The position numbers and the translations under genes are program-made. The notes under the pieces were generated by a model that ran no database searches, had not been told where the DNA came from, and worked only from the letters and a program-made list of their open reading frames with translations. 64,000 bases of DNA from an uncultured Bacteroidota bacterium (GTDB taxonomy: Bacteria; Bacteroidota; Bacteroidia; Flavobacteriales; Flavobacteriaceae). Below are positions 47,001-54,571 of this stretch, piece after piece; position 1 is the first letter of the stretch, and every line of letters starts with the position of its first letter. The stretch is from NCBI GenBank assembly GCA_902602415.1, contig CACKQW010000002.1, forward strand, positions 62,001 through 126,000. Reading direction: 5' to 3'.

Positions 47001-49478
47001 ATGAAAAACTTTACTCAAAATTTATTTTTTGTAGCTCTCCTATTATTTGGAACTACAATTTTTTCTCAAGAGCCTGTTGAAGAAGACTCTATGGATTTAG
47101 AGGAACTTGAAGAAGTTCTTTTAATTGGAGGTGGTGTTATTGACTTAGCTGAAGACAGAAAAACACCAGTGGCTGCTACTACTATTAAAGCGGATGAAAT
47201 TCAGAAAAAGATAGGTACTCAAGATATTTCAGCGATTCTTGTAAATTCACCAAGCATCTATGTTTCAAGTCAGATGACTGGATACGGAAGTTCTAGAATG
47301 TTTGTTAGGGGATTTGAAGACGATAATACTGCTTTCTTAATAAATGGTCAGCCTATTAATAGTCAGGAAGATGGTAGAATGTATTATTCTAACTGGTCTG
47401 GAATGAGCGATATTGCAAATGTAATACAAATTCAAAGAGGACTTGGAGCTTCCAAATTAGCGATATCATCTGTTGGTGGTACAGTTAATTTTGTTATGAA
47501 ATCTGCTGAAAAAAATCAAGGAGGATTTTTTTACCAAGGTTTTGCTAATGATAATTATCTCAAAAGCACAGTTTCTTATGATACTGGCATGAATGAGAAC
47601 GGATGGGCCACAAGTCTTTTATTCACTCATTGGCAGGGAGATGGATATGCTGAAGGAACATATGGTCAAGGTCAAACCTATTTTGTTTCTGTTGGCTACA
47701 AAGCAAATGATAAACATTCTTTCAATTTCTTATTGACAGGTGCTCCTCAAAACCATGATGAACAATTTAGTCAATCTATACAATCATTTATTGATAAGGG
47801 AATAAAATTTAATGATAATATTGGATATGTTGGGAATGTTTACAAAACTGAAGAAACTAACTTTTATCATAAGCCTGTATTCAACTTCAGTTGGGATTAT
47901 AATATCAATGATAAGTCCAATTTATCTACTGTGTTATATGCTTCAACAGGAAATGGAGGTGGTACTGGTGGTCGTGGAGTTGAGCCAAGAACTGCTGAAG
48001 GATATATTGATTATGATGCTATTTATCAAATGAATTCTGAAGTTCCAAATGGTGCTGGATATTACTTTGGGGACTACGATAATTATATCACCAGAGCTTC
48101 AATGAACATGCATCAATGGGTTGGTTTAGTTTCTAACTATGAAAGAAATCTTTCTGAGAATTTAACCCTTAATGTTGGGGTAGATTTAAGAACCTATTAT
48201 GGTGAACATTTTAGAGTTGTAAAAGATTTCCATGGATTGTCATCATGGGGTGAGGATGTAAGATTAAAAGATCATATCAATAATCACCAAAATTTAGGTT
48301 CCTATGGAACTTACAAGCAAACTTATACTGAGTACTACTTGGATGCAAATGCATGGGATGCAACTTTTGCAAACATAGACGAATATGATAAAATTGCATA
48401 CAGTAATGATGAGAGAATTACATATGGAGGACTATTTACGCAAATTGAATATGCAAATGACAAATTTTCTGCATTCTTCCAAGGATCTGTTTCTAACCAA
48501 TATCATCAAAGGTTTGACCATATGAATTATGTTGATGATGCATTACTTGATGGGTCATCTCCACAATGGAATGGAACAGAATTACCTGATTATTTAACTC
48601 CAGGAACCGATTCAGAAAAAGCTGATAATTTTGGTTTTAATGCAAAAGCTGGTTTTGGTTATGAAGTTTACGACAATGCAAAAGTTTATGTTAATGTTGG
48701 TTACTATGACAGACAGCCATATCATGATAATATGTATTTAGATTATACAAATCAATTAAATCCTAATACTTCAAATGAAACAATTTTAGGTCTTGAGGCT
48801 GGCTATTCTTATTCAGTTCCAAACTTTACAACAAACATCAATGTTTACAGAACATCTTGGGCAGATAGAGTTACTTCATCCTTTGATGAGACTGATGCGG
48901 GAACATTAGAATTTACATTGAATGAAGCTGTAGAACAATTACATCAAGGTATTGAAATTGATTTTGTTGCGCAGCCTCAGCCAGAAGTCCCTTACACTGT
49001 TAGAGGATTTGTTGGTTTAGGTGATTGGAAGTATGTTGGTAATTCAATCGAAAGAGTTGTTGATGAAGATAGAAATGTTATTAGCGTCTCTGAAAATGAT
49101 ATTGATGGTGGTGAAGTTGGTGGAGCTGCCCAATTTACTGCTGGTGTTGGATTAGATATTCAAATTGCGGAAAGATTTTCATTTGATACTGATGTAAGAT
49201 TTTATGATAATTTGTATGCTGAAAGAACAGTAAAAAATAACTTGGAGCTACCAAACTATAACCTTGCAGATATGGGACTTTCCTACAAAATGTTATTGGA
49301 TAGTGGTTCTTTAGATATTAGAGTTAATGTCAAAAACGTATTTGACATGAGATATATTGAATATTTAAACACTATTGATGGAGATTCCGGAGTATTCTAT
49401 AGGGGTATTGATACTGCTAATGAGGGCCAATTTGGTTTAGGAAGGACATGGAGTGTAGGTATGAGATACAATTTCTAA
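47001..49478 (+). CDS. TonB-dependent receptor
   Basis: An 825-residue outer-membrane receptor. The signal peptide (FFVALLLFGTTIFSQ) is followed by a very acidic segment (EPVEEDSMDLEELEEVLLIGG) holding the TonB box, the plug (GYGSSRMFVRGFEDDNTAFLI, NWSGMSDIANVIQI, AISSVGGTVNFVMKS) and a barrel that ends RTWSVGMRYNF. No CarboxypepD_reg domain. It is recognisably related to the receptor at 50629 (NWSGMSD versus NWGGLND, similar spacing). Upstream a TATATTTT at 46958-46965 is one base off the -7 consensus. Regular codon usage with few rare stretches suggests good expression. Substrate unknown. Confidence 0.88.
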   Translation: MKNFTQNLFFVALLLFGTTIFSQEPVEEDSMDLEELEEVLLIGGGVIDLAEDRKTPVAATTIKADEIQKKIGTQDISAILVNSPSIYVSSQMTGYGSSRMFVRGFEDDNTAFLINGQPINSQEDGRMYYSNWSGMSDIANVIQIQRGLGASKLAISSVGGTVNFVMKSAEKNQGGFFYQGFANDNYLKSTVSYDTGMNENGWATSLLFTHWQGDGYAEGTYGQGQTYFVSVGYKANDKHSFNFLLTGAPQNHDEQFSQSIQSFIDKGIKFNDNIGYVGNVYKTEETNFYHKPVFNFSWDYNINDKSNLSTVLYASTGNGGGTGGRGVEPRTAEGYIDYDAIYQMNSEVPNGAGYYFGDYDNYITRASMNMHQWVGLVSNYERNLSENLTLNVGVDLRTYYGEHFRVVKDFHGLSSWGEDVRLKDHINNHQNLGSYGTYKQTYTEYYLDANAWDATFANIDEYDKIAYSNDERITYGGLFTQIEYANDKFSAFFQGSVSNQYHQRFDHMNYVDDALLDGSSPQWNGTELPDYLTPGTDSEKADNFGFNAKAGFGYEVYDNAKVYVNVGYYDRQPYHDNMYLDYTNQLNPNTSNETILGLEAGYSYSVPNFTTNINVYRTSWADRVTSSFDETDAGTLEFTLNEAVEQLHQGIEIDFVAQPQPEVPYTVRGFVGLGDWKYVGNSIERVVDEDRNVISVSENDIDGGEVGGAAQFTAGVGLDIQIAERFSFDTDVRFYDNLYAERTVKNNLELPNYNLADMGLSYKMLLDSGSLDIRVNVKNVFDMRYIEYLNTIDGDSGVFYRGIDTANEGQFGLGRTWSVGMRYNF

Positions 49479-49500: not shown

Positions 49501-49533
49501 AAAAAAGATCTACAGAAATGTAGATCTTTTTTT
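49501..49533. terminator. bidirectional intrinsic terminator
   Basis: AAAAAAGATCTACA-GAAA-TGTAGATCTTTTTT is a perfect 14-base-pair inverted repeat with a GAAA loop, with A and T tracts on both sides. It lies between two convergent genes and can stop transcription from both strands; it overlaps the stop codon (49532-49534) of the minus-strand gene. Confidence 0.85.
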
Positions 49534-50575
49534 ATTTAATCTCTTTGATAAGAAAAATGTAAGGCGGTAAATGATCGCTATAACCCCCTGTGAAAGATCC
49601 AAAGGAAAAGCTTCTAAAAGGATATCCTTTGTATTTCCCTTTTTTATTAATTAAAAAACTTTTATTAAATACACCAGCTTTAAAAAATTGGTAGTCTTTA
49701 TAATCCTTTTTTAGAAAGCCTTCAGAGATGATTATTTGATCAAATAATTGCCATTTATCCCTGTATGCGTTAGTGCCAATTCCCTGGTCAACTAAAATTG
49801 TTTCAAAAGGGTTATACATATCTTTTCTTCCAACATCTTTTCTGTTTTTTATTGCACCGAGAACTTTTTTAATGCTATTATCAAATGGGTCATCATTAAA
49901 GTCACCCATAGTTATAATTTTAGGATTCTTATAAATACTTCTCAAGGAATCAATGATCTTGTTATTGACTTTTGCTGCAGCTATTCTTTTTGTTTCATCT
50001 GCTCCTCTTGACGGCCAATGATTAACAATTAGATGAATCAATTCACCATCAATTAAACCACTTACCACTAATTGGTCTCTGGTAGGTCTTCTGTTACTTG
50101 AATTATTATCCGTAATAATAACCTCGTGTGAACTAGAACTTTTTACCTCAAAAATATTTTTTTTATAAATCAAACCAACATCAATTCCTCTATTGTCAGG
50201 GGAGTCATAGTGAACAATACCGTAATTTTCGTTTTTTAACTCTTCCTGACTAATTAGGTCTTGAACTACATTTAAATTTTCAACTTCACAAATTCCGACT
50301 ATTGATGGAGATTTTTTTGTATAGTCATATCCAATTTGAGAGATTACTTTAGCCATATTAGAAATTTTCTTTTTGTAGACATAGGATCTATTAAATTTCA
50401 TTTCCATGATAGGACTTGCTTCGTCGTTTTTATTTACATCATTAATTGTATCAAATAGATTTTCGAGATTATAAAAAGCAACGGTATGAATTTTAAAATT
50501 TCGTTTTTCTTGAGAATATTGATTGTCAGTAAATAGTAAGAAAAAAAGTAATAAATAGCAGAACAAATTTTTCAT
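49532..50575 (-). CDS. secreted endonuclease/exonuclease/phosphatase (EEP) family protein
   Basis: A 347-residue exported protein (signal peptide to about residue 21, LLLFFLLFTDNQYSQ). All EEP active-site motifs are visible: FYNLENLFD (residues 34-42), GICEVEN with metal-binding Glu (94-100), DNRGIDVGLIY, NHWPSR (185-190), MGDFNDDP with D225 and N227, and SDHLP near the C-terminus. The fold hydrolyses phosphodiesters in nucleic acids or phosphomonoesters in other substrates. The adjacent divergent TonB receptor and DUF5689 lipoprotein suggest extracellular nucleic-acid or organic-phosphate use, which is an inference from context. Confidence 0.88.
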   Translation of the reverse strand: MKNLFCYLLLFFLLFTDNQYSQEKRNFKIHTVAFYNLENLFDTINDVNKNDEASPIMEMKFNRSYVYKKKISNMAKVISQIGYDYTKKSPSIVGICEVENLNVVQDLISQEELKNENYGIVHYDSPDNRGIDVGLIYKKNIFEVKSSSSHEVIITDNNSSNRRPTRDQLVVSGLIDGELIHLIVNHWPSRGADETKRIAAAKVNNKIIDSLRSIYKNPKIITMGDFNDDPFDNSIKKVLGAIKNRKDVGRKDMYNPFETILVDQGIGTNAYRDKWQLFDQIIISEGFLKKDYKDYQFFKAGVFNKSFLINKKGKYKGYPFRSFSFGSFTGGYSDHLPPYIFLIKEIK

Positions 50576-50628
50576 AAAAAAAGTATTAGTTTATAAATAA
50601 AACGTAAATTTAAGAATTGTAAAAATAG

Positions 50629-53211
50629 ATGAAATTTTTTATTAATATGCACAAAATAAACTCACTTTGTATAGTGGTTTTTCTACTTACTATTAATTCA
50701 TTTTCCCAGTCCGAATTAAATCAGGAAACAGTTAACGATTCTATCATTAGTCTTTCTGATACAGATGATGTTGTAGATCTATTCAGTATATCTCTTTCTG
50801 ACGATGAGCTAAATGATGACACATCTGTTTCTGATAATATTTCTGGTTTATTGAACTCATCAATGGACATATTTTACAGAACTGCTGCTTACGAATTCAG
50901 TTCTTCTTTTTTTAAAGTAAGGGGCCTGGACACTGAAAATGCCTCCTTACATATTAACGGAATTAAAATGAATAAGATATATAACGGAAGACCACAGTGG
51001 AGCAATTGGGGAGGTCTGAATGATGTATTAAGAAACCAAGAGCTTTCCAATGGGTTAATACCATTGAAATATAGCTTTGGAGGAGCTTTGGGTTCCAACA
51101 ATATCAATGTAAAAGCTTCCGAATATGGACAAGGCGGCAGAGTTACTTACTCTTCGTCAAATAGAAGCTATGCAAACAGACTTATGGCATCTTATAATTC
51201 AGGGATGCTCAATGATGGGTGGGCATACTCCATTTCTATTGGAAGAAGATGGGGCGATGAAGGTTATCAAGATGCATCTTTTTATGATTCAAATTCTGCC
51301 TTTCTTTCGGTAGAAAAGATTTTAAATGATAATCACAGTTTAAACTTTGTTGCTATTTATGCACCAAATAGAAGAGGAAAAGTTTCTCCAAACACTCAAG
51401 AAGTTTATGATTTAAAAGGAACAAAATATAATGAATATTGGGGTTATCAAGATGGTGAAAAGAGAAATTCAAGGGTCAAAAGAGTTGTGGAGCCAATTGT
51501 GATTTTAAATCACGATTGGGAAATTAATGAAAGCTCATCCCTTGAAACAAGTTTGGGCTTTCAATTGGGAGAATTGGGAAATAGCAGATTAGATTATGCA
51601 GGTGGAGGAAACCCAAGTCCTGCTTATTATCAAGATCTGCCAAGTTATTTTTTAGGCGACGAGGATGGTCCAAATTATGAAGGCGCTTATCTTGCACAGG
51701 AAAATTTTGTGAATAATGGTCAAATTAATTGGAATAGAATTTATGATGCTAACCTAACCAATGCTTCCGTGAATTTAGATGCAGCATATGTCTTATATGA
51801 GGACAGAGCGGACGATAAGCAACTAAGCTTTAATAGTGTTTTTTCACATCAAATAGATGACAACATAAAAGTAAGTGCAGCGATAAATCATAGAAGTTTA
51901 TTGTCAAATAATTTCGCTGAAGTAACGGATTTATTAGGTGGGCTTTCTTATTCGAATATTGACTCTTTTGATAATTTAGATTATAATTTATTAGATCCAA
52001 ATAGTACAATTTTTGAGGGAGATAAATTTAAATATCACTATGAAATTGATGCAAAAGAGAGTAGTGTTTTTACAATTTTTAATCACTCCTATAATAAAAT
52101 AGATTTTTATTATGCACTAAACTTCACAGGAACTACCTATCAAAGAAATGGTATTTTTGAGAATGAGGCAAATGCAGGAAACTCGTCTGGAAAAGGCGAT
52201 AAAGTTTCATTTGATGGCTATGGAGTAAAAGCAGGTTTTTCTTACAAATTTTCAGGAAAGCATATTTTAGATTTTAATGCTGCATATATAGAAAAAGCAC
52301 CTTCAATAAGAAATACATTCACCAATTCTAGGGTTAATCATAATATTGTAGGAAGCGATGCAAATGGATTAATTAATAATACTCCGATCACTGAGGAAAA
52401 GATTACATCATTTGATGCAAATTATATTTTTAGAACCCCAATTTTCACGGGAAGAATTTCAGGATTCTATTCATATATCGAAGATGCAAATGAAATATCT
52501 TTTTATTATGCAGATGGATTAGTAGGCTTTTCAGAAGACAGTGAATTTGTTCAGGAGATATTACAGGGGATCAATAAAAAACATATAGGTCTAGAATTTG
52601 GAGTTGAAGCTCAAATTATACCTTCATTTAAACTAAAGGCAGCATCTTCAATTGGACAATATACATATGATAATAATCCTTATCTCTACTTGGGTGCTGA
52701 TAATTATACTGTCCCCGTTGGACCCTCGAACTTAAAAAACTATAAATTAGCTGGTGGACCTCAAAGAGCTTATTCTTTTGGATTTGAATATAGAGATCCA
52801 GATTATTGGTTTGTTGGTGTAACTTCTAATTATTTTACCAACACATACGTAGATCCAAGTCCACTAACCCGCACGCAAAATTTTTATCTTTCGCAAGATG
52901 GTCTTCCATTTAATGATTATGATTTGGATACAGCCCGAAATTTATTAAGACAAGAAAAATTTGATGATTATTCGGTATTAAATATGATTGGTGGGAAGTC
53001 TTGGAAAATAGATGATTACTACATTGGTTTTTTTGCCAGCATAAATAATATTTTGGATAAAAAATATAGAACAGGTGGTTTTGAACAAGGAAGAAATGCC
53101 AACTACAGACAACTACTTGAAGATGTGAATAAACCTAAAAGAGTTTTTGGCCCAAAATATTGGTATGGCAGAGGGACCAATTACTTTTTAAACTTATACT
53201 TTAGATTTTAA
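50629..53211 (+). CDS. TonB-dependent receptor of the DUF5689-associated group
   Basis: An 860-residue outer-membrane receptor with signal peptide (SLCIVVFLLTINSFSQ; the second Met at residue 7 is an alternative start), an acidic connector (FSISLSDDELNDDTSV), a plug with FKVRGLDTENASLHINGIK, RPQWSNWGGLNDVLRNQE and FGGALGSNNINVKAS, and a barrel ending YFLNLYFRF. The C-terminal IGFFASINNILDKKYRTGGFEQGRN region is also typical of the group. No CarboxypepD_reg domain. It is followed after 10 bases by a DUF5689 lipoprotein, a constant partner of this receptor type in Flavobacteriia, and is divergent from the EEP gene. Substrate not proven. Confidence 0.9.
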   Translation: MKFFINMHKINSLCIVVFLLTINSFSQSELNQETVNDSIISLSDTDDVVDLFSISLSDDELNDDTSVSDNISGLLNSSMDIFYRTAAYEFSSSFFKVRGLDTENASLHINGIKMNKIYNGRPQWSNWGGLNDVLRNQELSNGLIPLKYSFGGALGSNNINVKASEYGQGGRVTYSSSNRSYANRLMASYNSGMLNDGWAYSISIGRRWGDEGYQDASFYDSNSAFLSVEKILNDNHSLNFVAIYAPNRRGKVSPNTQEVYDLKGTKYNEYWGYQDGEKRNSRVKRVVEPIVILNHDWEINESSSLETSLGFQLGELGNSRLDYAGGGNPSPAYYQDLPSYFLGDEDGPNYEGAYLAQENFVNNGQINWNRIYDANLTNASVNLDAAYVLYEDRADDKQLSFNSVFSHQIDDNIKVSAAINHRSLLSNNFAEVTDLLGGLSYSNIDSFDNLDYNLLDPNSTIFEGDKFKYHYEIDAKESSVFTIFNHSYNKIDFYYALNFTGTTYQRNGIFENEANAGNSSGKGDKVSFDGYGVKAGFSYKFSGKHILDFNAAYIEKAPSIRNTFTNSRVNHNIVGSDANGLINNTPITEEKITSFDANYIFRTPIFTGRISGFYSYIEDANEISFYYADGLVGFSEDSEFVQEILQGINKKHIGLEFGVEAQIIPSFKLKAASSIGQYTYDNNPYLYLGADNYTVPVGPSNLKNYKLAGGPQRAYSFGFEYRDPDYWFVGVTSNYFTNTYVDPSPLTRTQNFYLSQDGLPFNDYDLDTARNLLRQEKFDDYSVLNMIGGKSWKIDDYYIGFFASINNILDKKYRTGGFEQGRNANYRQLLEDVNKPKRVFGPKYWYGRGTNYFLNLYFRF

Positions 53212-53221
53212 ATAAAAAAAA

Positions 53222-54571
53222 ATGGAATTAATAAAGAAAATATCAATTATAATTTTTGTATCAATTTTTACTTTTTCTTGTGTTCAGGATGATGATTATT
53301 CTGTTCCCCAAAGCGTTGGCTTGGAAGAAAATGAAAACTTAACTCAATTACTCTCTGAAATTGACAGCGGTTCAGCAGACTTGATTTCTATTTCTGAAGC
53401 CAAAAGTTATTTTATTGATGACGAAGTTAACCAGATCGAATCCAACTTAGTTGTGAAGGGATATGTTGTTTCATCTGATTTCTCTGGGAATTTTTACAAG
53501 GAGTTTTATATGCAAGACAAATATGCAAGCCCCACGTCTGGAATTAAGGTAGTAATAAACCAAGTGGACAGTTATAACCAATTTAATTTTGGAAGAGAAA
53601 TTTATGTAAAACTTCAAGGATTATATATTGGAGAAACAAATTCTGGAGATGGTGTTATTGCTATTGGTCATGCATCCCCAGGAAGCGATGAAATTGATGC
53701 AATTGCTGAAAGTAATATTCCGAGTACGATTATTAGATCTGCTAACACATTCGATGTTGCTCCTCTTGAATTAAATCTGGGTGATATTAATGACACTCAC
53801 ATTGGTATTTATACAAGTGCAATTAATTCACAATTTGCAAGCGGTTTAGAAGGATTACCTTATGTAGAGCCTACGGAGCAATATGATACTCAAAGAGATT
53901 TAGAGAGTTGTGTGGATTCTGGTTCTCTAAAGGTTGAAACGAGTGCATTCTCTAATTTTAACGATAGAATTTTACCCACTGAGGGCAGTGGATCAATTGT
54001 TGGTATTATTACAAGAGATTATTTTGGGGATAATAGAGTTATGGTATTAAATTCTGCTGATGACGTGAGTTTTGATGTGCCTAGATGTGACCCATTATTT
54101 TCAGATGATTTTTCATCAAATACATTAAATAACTGGTTTGTAAAAAGTGTAGTTGGACCACAAGAATGGGAGATTACACCTTATGGAAATCCAGCTCCAA
54201 GTGCAAAGATTTCAGGATTTAGTGGAGGTAGTGTTGAAAATGAAGATTGGTTAATAAGTAAACCTGTGAATCTAGATGGCTTATCATCTGCGACACTTAC
54301 TTTTCAATCTGTTGTTCGTTATTCAGGACCTGAACTTACAGTATATATTGGTACTGATTACAATGAGGGTAATCCAAATGATGATGGAAATTGGGATCTT
54401 ATTTCTGCTACCCTAGACACTGATGATACCAGCTGGTCTTCGTGGACAGATTCAGGAAATATTGATCTATCATCATATGTAGGTCAGACTATATATATTG
54501 CCTTTAAATATGTTTCGAATAGTTCCTCTGCGACTTATGAAATCGATAATGTTTTAGTGACTGGAGAGTAA
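53222..54571 (+). CDS. DUF5689/choice-of-anchor-J lipoprotein
   Basis: A 449-residue lipoprotein: signal peptide ending FVSIFTFSC (Cys20) and an acidic VQDDDYS start of the mature part. An OB-fold-like DUF5689 region spans roughly residues 45-290 (VKGYVVSSDFSGNFYKEFYM, GREIYVKLQGLYIG, GIITRDYFGDNRVMV). A jelly-roll, choice-of-anchor-J type region follows (SDDFSSNTLNNWF, NEDWLISKPVNL, IYIAFKYVSNSSSATYEIDN). It probably sits on the cell surface as partner of the receptor 10 bases upstream. OB folds often bind oligonucleotides or oligosaccharides; binding is inferred only. Confidence 0.85.
   Translation: MELIKKISIIIFVSIFTFSCVQDDDYSVPQSVGLEENENLTQLLSEIDSGSADLISISEAKSYFIDDEVNQIESNLVVKGYVVSSDFSGNFYKEFYMQDKYASPTSGIKVVINQVDSYNQFNFGREIYVKLQGLYIGETNSGDGVIAIGHASPGSDEIDAIAESNIPSTIIRSANTFDVAPLELNLGDINDTHIGIYTSAINSQFASGLEGLPYVEPTEQYDTQRDLESCVDSGSLKVETSAFSNFNDRILPTEGSGSIVGIITRDYFGDNRVMVLNSADDVSFDVPRCDPLFSDDFSSNTLNNWFVKSVVGPQEWEITPYGNPAPSAKISGFSGGSVENEDWLISKPVNLDGLSSATLTFQSVVRYSGPELTVYIGTDYNEGNPNDDGNWDLISATLDTDDTSWSSWTDSGNIDLSSYVGQTIYIAFKYVSNSSSATYEIDNVLVTGE

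Follow-up and report, generated by a model that had tools for sequence, protein, structure and literature searches.

The locus described here bears on how DNA crosses the outer membrane of Bacteroidota without a pilus. In R. anatipestifer, where pilus homologues had not been found, transposon insertions in RA0C_RS04915 are reported to abolish natural transformation, and markerless deletions of RA0C_RS04915 and RA0C_RS04920, the latter encoding a DUF5689 + DUF5017 protein, to yield no transformants (PMC8459023). The authors speculate that RS04915 moves dsDNA and that RS04920 binds it, and they invoke a further enzyme producing single strands, which they do not name (PMC8459023). In the same report, pairs of the RS04915/RS04920 type are said to lie next to each other throughout the Flavobacteriaceae apart from two exceptions, and F. 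johnsoniae is described as having the homologues yet not being competent under the conditions tried (PMC8459023). Mutants of R. anatipestifer in tonBA or tonBB showed reduced transformation, the effect of tonBB being attributed by its authors, perhaps, to iron (PMC8383284). Opposite effects of phosphate removal on transformation have been published for R. anatipestifer and R. columbina.

The window, i.e. the whole stretch of DNA analysed, comprises 64,000 nt from an uncultured Bacteroidota bacterium of the Flavobacteriaceae (assembly GCA_902602415.1, contig CACKQW010000002.1, positions 62,001-126,000, forward strand). Three genes of the window were studied, all of them intact and with coordinates exactly as first annotated. 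A nuclease-like protein of the EEP superfamily (Exo_endo_phos_3; 347 aa), with a Sec-type signal peptide and predicted to be periplasmic, is encoded at 49532-50575 on the minus strand. On the plus strand, 50629-53211 encodes a TonB-dependent receptor of 860 aa, recognized by homology and Foldseek and a candidate DNA translocator; after a gap of 10 bases, it is followed by the gene of a DUF5689 lipoprotein (53222-54571, plus strand, 449 aa), a candidate DNA-binding surface protein. The EEP and receptor genes are divergent, and the 53 bases that separate them (50576-50628) must accommodate the control signals of both.

The EEP protein was matched end to end by PF19580 in a Pfam scan (1-311 of 311, E 2e-105). 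Residues N36, E38, E97, H186, D225, N227, D279, D334 and H335 did not vary among the 16 sequences aligned, which included that of the window; we take these motif residues to be catalytic, as in the superfamily. The full-length profile match and the kept motif residues together place the protein in Exo_endo_phos_3, in agreement with a preliminary description of the locus, which had proposed an exported EEP-fold protein with intact motifs. A Sec-type signal peptide was read by eye at the N-terminus of the window protein, and signal peptides were found on all 16 aligned EEPs and also on the 16 N-termini listed of 79. With such a signal, a cytoplasmic location is not expected, and we rejected it on the strength of the aligned and listed homologues. 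The window EEP lacks both a lipobox and a secretion domain at its C-terminus, and in the 16 aligned sequences the C-terminus falls shortly after the last (SDH) motif. The signal peptide, the lack of a lipid anchor in the window and the end of the protein shortly after its last motif thus favour a predicted location in the periplasm. Among the C-termini listed, a few homologues carry short extra tails. A crude pattern search gave a lipobox-like hit in 3 of 79 EEPs, apparently due in two of them to a Cys inside the hydrophobic stretch. The EEPs of two loci (L155 and L065) may be true lipoproteins, in which case the anchor would vary between relatives. When searched against the PDB, the EEP profile had nocturnin as its sole match (E 0.92). 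A nuclease activity on DNA is predicted for this protein.

The receptor of the window matched no family in the Pfam scan, and the same held for one of three receptor homologues scanned, which comes from the same genus. The other two showed CarboxypepD_reg and Plug (just under the Pfam cut-off); the window receptor lacks this N-terminal CarboxypepD_reg domain seen in relatives. An AlphaFold model made from 37 sequences had a mean pLDDT of 75.5, with low confidence in the plug region, and the best 50 matches listed by Foldseek for this model were all TonB-dependent transporters, PqqU being the top one (E 1.3e-24). Judged from the model, the protein has the plug and barrel of the TonB-dependent receptor fold, which agrees with the TonB receptor proposed in the preliminary description. 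The closest named receptor, 96% identical, comes from the metagenome-assembled genome MED-G13.

The product of the third gene matched PF18942 (DUF5689) over residues 54-282 (E 1.8e-52) and contains a lipobox-type cysteine, Cys20, after its signal, as expected of the DUF5689 lipoprotein that had been described behind the receptor. Cys20 was invariant in 68 of 68 DUF5689 relatives and is directly followed in the window by VQDDD, an acidic run resembling a surface-export signal. Such a run stands behind the Cys in about 61 of the 68 relatives, a rough count because it takes the first Cys past residue 11, which in a few rows lies earlier than the lipobox Cys. It is like the surface-export signal that has been described for lipoproteins of Bacteroidetes (PMC5080379). 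The structural model of the DUF5689 protein was confident and beta-rich (mean pLDDT 90.5). It comprised a C-terminal jelly roll at residues 287-449, matched by choice_anch_J with 65 bits, which resembled carbohydrate-binding and adhesin-like jelly rolls in structure (8jiy, Z 16.9, rmsd 2.6, 160 aligned) and came closest to the carbohydrate-binding domain of a chondroitinase and to adhesin domains of gingipains. The preliminary description had called the DUF5689 region OB-fold-like. In the search with the whole protein, the list was filled by matches of this C-terminal domain, to which the search thus applies, with no OB fold among them, and none of the 25 of 27 families listed for A4 members was an OB Pfam family. 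The jelly roll is not constant, a lamin-tail domain taking its place in two relatives. Binding of DNA at the surface is a candidate role for this protein.

The association of the three genes was surveyed in 149 genomes of the family, representing 148 genera, a receptor orthologue being defined as a match of more than 300 bits. Some receptor match was found in 141 genomes, exceeding 300 bits in 135, while DUF5689 and EEP matches occurred in 136 and 142 of the 149, respectively. The DUF5689 gene lies directly downstream of the receptor gene in 132 of 135 genomes, and the presence or absence of the two agrees in 148 of 149 (135 with both, 13 with neither). A divergent EEP gene was found within 2 kb of the receptor in 115 of the 125 genomes for which an EEP place was listed; of the ten others, two (G066 and G037) sit at contig ends, and two (G016 and G023) showed no EEP in the stretch of 10-11 kb that was read on and about the receptor gene. 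In a set of 80 named loci, the EEP gene was divergent in 79, the missing one being at a contig edge, and DUF5689 was downstream in 79 after re-check (76 at first pass), the remaining miss being again a contig edge. An apparent receptor-DUF5689 fusion in L144 was rejected, since it corresponds to an N run in the assembly and DUF5689 is present, as was the seeming absence of DUF5689 from L110 and L111, an ORF-overlap artefact in which the gene reappeared on re-scan. The grouping of the three genes is far beyond chance and bears out their co-occurrence, which the preliminary description had put forward as a check. Within the genus, median dN/dS values, obtained by a simple counting method on congener pairs with dS < 2, were 0.068 for EEP (31 of 78 pairs), 0.041 for the receptor (43 of 91) and 0.071 for DUF5689 (67 of 91), and the three genes are under strong purifying selection.

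Other neighbours were less constant in the 80 named loci (PGI in 23, OsmC in 4, a second receptor in 39). We clustered the neighbours and scanned representatives of 10 of the 14 most widespread clusters with Pfam. They included a secreted Endonuclease_1 with Ig-like domains (9 loci), an HflX-type GTPase (26), RNase E/G (9) and a penicillin-binding protein (8), as well as CHU_C, DUF3078 and DUF2480; the representatives of three clusters (50, 30 and 7 loci) matched no Pfam family. No glycan-degrading enzyme was found among the ten representatives, and hence no sign there of the linkage to polysaccharide enzymes that would have spoken against a role in nucleic-acid scavenging.

At the level of the order, the divergent EEP-receptor-DUF5689 set was found in 5 of 7 loci (4 of 4 in family f5 and one in family f3). 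In one further locus, of which 19 kb were read, EEP and receptor were found and DUF5689 was not; another had the receptor and two DUF5689 genes with no EEP seen. A search of a plasmid collection gave six receptor matches, among which the arrangement varied. In Bacteroides finegoldii, receptor, DUF5689 and EEP genes form one co-directional row, and in Aureibacter the co-directional order is receptor-DUF5689-DUF5689-Endonuclease_1-EEP-EEP. The second gene after the receptor in Flammeovirga encodes a DUF5689-Endonuclease_1 fusion (290 bits), with no EEP in the stretch read. Prevotella and Phocaeicola had receptor and DUF5689 and no EEP in the stretch read, and Persicobacter had neither EEP nor DUF5689 beside its receptor in the stretch read.

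We compared the locus with the Riemerella pair. In R. anatipestifer ATCC 11845, RA0C_RS04915 and RA0C_RS04920 are likewise an adjacent receptor and DUF5689 protein, in that order, and are described as a predicted operon (PMC8459023). They correspond to an outer-membrane CarboxypepD_reg protein, a domain that the window receptor lacks, and a DUF5689/DUF5017 choice-of-anchor-J protein (PMC8459023). The NCBIfam model lipo_M949_1556, the name of which is derived from an R. anatipestifer gene, scored 205 bits over residues 5-446 of the window lipoprotein, under its curated cut-off of 475; on the module lipoproteins of three f5 loci, it scored 706 and 789 bits, above the cut-off, and 367 bits, below it. 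Architecture, synteny, the reported adjacency and this model, with the window below its cut-off, suggest that the two pairs are homologous. The part in transformation of the homologous receptor pair had thus already been published (PMC8459023) and was missed by the preliminary description. In the available text of the Riemerella account, an EEP partner is not discussed, and 'endonuclease' appears twice in the main text, at least once in a passage on restriction enzymes (PMC8459023). In searches of the open-access literature, we noticed no paper joining EEP to the receptor/DUF5689 pair. Since a nuclease-family gene stands beside the receptor in most genomes, it is an obvious candidate for the single-strand-making enzyme invoked in Riemerella.

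If the locus served transformation in the window's genus, ComEC and DprA would be expected there as well. Of the 149 family genomes, 134 gave a ComEC match and 138 a DprA match over cut-off. Neither is present in the genome of the window, in G055 of the same genus, in G136 and G067, two relatives with small genomes, or in G142, all of which keep receptor, DUF5689 and EEP (in G067, the EEP gene is on another contig). G142 is 99% complete on one contig. In a larger sample of the genus, comprising 21 assemblies, all incomplete (56-86%, mean 70.8%; 73.8% for the window genome), neither ComEC nor DprA over cut-off was found (0 of 21 each). For an always-present gene at the mean completeness, and assuming independence, the probability of such an absence by chance is about 2e-12. 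DprA matches of 19-23 bits in nine congeners fell below the cut-off, in frames of 228-233 aa, and were left uncounted. ComEA-like HHH_3 (PF12836) was also found over cut-off in 0 of 21, the matches near 20 bits in five congeners being to frames of 1448-1457 aa; the Riemerella HHH protein may belong to another model. The receptor, by comparison, was present in 16 of the 21 genomes (14 full length and two fragments, in G152 and G163); a seventeenth match, in G161, was a paralogue only and was left out of the count. ComEC and DprA therefore appear, from these genomes, to have been lost in the genus, which, unlike Riemerella, has neither of them nor a ComEA-like HHH_3 protein over cut-off.

Across the 149 genomes, receptor and DprA were distributed as 130 with both, 5 with the receptor only, 8 with DprA only and 6 with neither, and receptor and ComEC as 127, 8, 7 and 7. 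These associations are positive (Fisher p < 1e-4, ignoring ancestry and genome reduction). Seven genomes keep ComEC and DprA and miss the receptor orthologue, so that module and transformation machinery are separable both ways.

These findings suggested a mechanism in which the surface-anchored DUF5689 lipoprotein would catch DNA and pass it to the receptor, TonB energy would drive it through the receptor into the periplasm, and the divergently encoded EEP enzyme would cut it there. Where relatives keep ComEC and DprA, some of the DNA would continue into the cytoplasm, resulting in natural transformation. With these two proteins apparently lost, the module of the window's genus would most likely feed the cell, by supplying nucleosides and phosphate. 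The low dN/dS values of the three genes and a nucleoside transporter, present in 20 of the 21 genus genomes, speak for this use, although such transporters also occur in 4 of 14 control genomes without such a locus. We consider it fairly probable that a TonB-driven importer of extracellular DNA and an EEP nuclease are used in this genus as such a feeding system. Counting against it are the likeness of the jelly roll to carbohydrate-binding and adhesin domains, the exceptions to the EEP linkage, the seven genomes with ComEC and DprA that miss the receptor orthologue, the lack of competence of F. johnsoniae in the conditions tried, the score of the window lipoprotein under the lipo_M949_1556 cut-off and the incompleteness of the genus assemblies. 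DNA is the likeliest substrate because Riemerella cannot be naturally transformed without homologues of the receptor and DUF5689 protein. Cutting after import also seems likelier than cutting at the surface, given that the window EEP has neither lipobox nor secretion domain and that long DNA must enter for transformation. The order proposed in the preliminary description, with cleavage at the surface followed by import of the products, is for the same reasons probably wrong. Of the scavenging that it had suggested, the part concerning nucleic acids gained support from the EEP linkage, the Endonuclease I fusion and gene rows, and the essentiality in Riemerella, and the part concerning organic phosphate in general found none.

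We considered whether the locus might be used for natural transformation in this genus as well, ComEC and DprA being hidden by incomplete assemblies or divergence. The incompleteness of every assembly of the genus, the essentiality of the homologous pair in R. anatipestifer and the co-occurrence of the receptor with DprA and ComEC are what such a role would lead one to expect; yet the absence of both, over cut-off, from all 21 genomes would be highly improbable by chance under independence, and the nearly complete G142 has kept the locus without them, which makes this explanation quite improbable. Another possibility is that the EEP protein cuts RNA or other phosphodiesters (nucleotides, phospholipid head groups) outside the cell and that the receptor imports small products. 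The EEP superfamily also includes enzymes that are not nucleases, and intact motifs, a signal peptide and the nucleoside transporter of 20 of the 21 genus genomes fit general scavenging of this kind. Yet DNA has to enter for the transformation in which the homologues take part, DUF5689 is elsewhere fused to or adjoins Endonuclease I, and the window EEP has no anchor or secretion domain that would hold it at the surface. We therefore regard this explanation as unlikely.

The pairing of a receptor with a lipoprotein resembles SusCD, and the jelly roll is most like domains of a chondroitinase and of gingipains. The pair might thus take up glycans or glycoconjugates, the lipoprotein binding sugar through its jelly roll and the EEP gene being an unrelated but stable neighbour. 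Against this, the jelly roll is replaced by a lamin-tail domain in two relatives, the ten neighbour representatives include no glycan-degrading enzyme, and EEP accompanies the pair even in rearranged loci; we consider glycan uptake very unlikely.

The DNA importer that we favour shares features with several known systems. In classical competence, which relies on a pilus and not on a TonB receptor, a nuclease acts at the DNA entry step (EndA in pneumococcus, NucA in Bacillus); EEP would play the same part with another enzyme fold. The multidomain extracellular nucleases YhcR (B. subtilis), ExeM (Shewanella) and Xds (Vibrio) combine OB-like, lamin-tail and nuclease domains. Some relatives of the window protein similarly fuse a lamin-tail or nuclease domain to DUF5689, and the DUF5689 profile had matches in B. 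subtilis among the 14 control genomes. In contrast to these nucleases, the domains of the present locus are for the most part encoded separately, next to the gene of an outer-membrane receptor. SusCD and BtuB-BtuG are Bacteroidota pairs of a TonB receptor and a surface lipoprotein. The plan of receptor then lipoprotein is common to them and the present locus, whereas the window lipoprotein belongs to a different family and is linked to genes of nuclease families.

More tentatively, we propose that Bacteroidota possess a pilus-free importer in which a TonB receptor works with a DUF5689 DNA-catcher and an EEP entry nuclease, the enzyme that would convert incoming dsDNA to usable fragments, and that several lineages, including the present genus with its small genomes, have dropped the transformation half and eat DNA. 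The EEP partnership and the separation of the module from transformation in this genus are apparently new. The flavobacterium Lutibacter is reported to have taken up DNA-derived carbon in sediment (PMC8289736). A lineage retaining the importer after the loss of ComEC and DprA would set the eating of DNA apart from its inheritance, and would provide a concrete route by which flavobacteria recycle DNA and phosphorus.

The first TonB receptor of the module lacks the CarboxypepD_reg domain at its N-terminus in the clade of the window (50629-50900 in the window; loci L062 and L063 compared with L064 and L069). The receptor of L064, which comes from the 99% complete, one-contig genome G142, retains this domain; that genome, too, is without ComEC and DprA. 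In the window, a second TonB receptor (47001-49478) adjoins the module and is 26% identical to the first across 37-762. A module with such a second receptor alongside was observed in the window and in 39 of the 80 named loci. In L111, the gene after this receptor encodes a lipoprotein-like product of 603 aa that has no Pfam family, and a small lipoprotein of similar appearance follows the receptor in a Persicobacter locus (L209).

An extra EEP gene was present 3' of the DUF5689 gene in many genomes (L070:9726-10700 and L071:8952-9917) and in 26/80 named loci. In L110 and L111, the extra gene is in reverse orientation relative to the DUF5689 gene, and the N-terminus of its product has no evident signal peptide. 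The window genome contains a single match to PF19580, the EEP family Exo_endo_phos_3.

The DUF5689 proteins themselves vary in domain make-up (L066:7403-10099, L064:2318-4279, L067:6871-8247). Some orthologues carry the DUF5689 domain in two or three copies, and a lamin-tail domain replaces the C-terminal jelly roll in those of L066 and L067. In Flammeovirga kamogawensis, the receptor gene adjoins one for a 1041-aa protein (L205:2706-5831) in which DUF5689 is combined with a lamin-tail domain and DUF6359, the latter in two stretches. The lipoprotein model lipo_M949_1556 is named after the R. anatipestifer gene M949_1556, which reportedly affects antigenicity and pathogenicity and may or may not be identical to the transformation gene RA0C_RS04920.

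Seven genomes (G032, G046, G064, G092, G112, G137 and G139) possess ComEC and DprA and lack a receptor orthologue. These bacteria may have a different route across the outer membrane, or no route.
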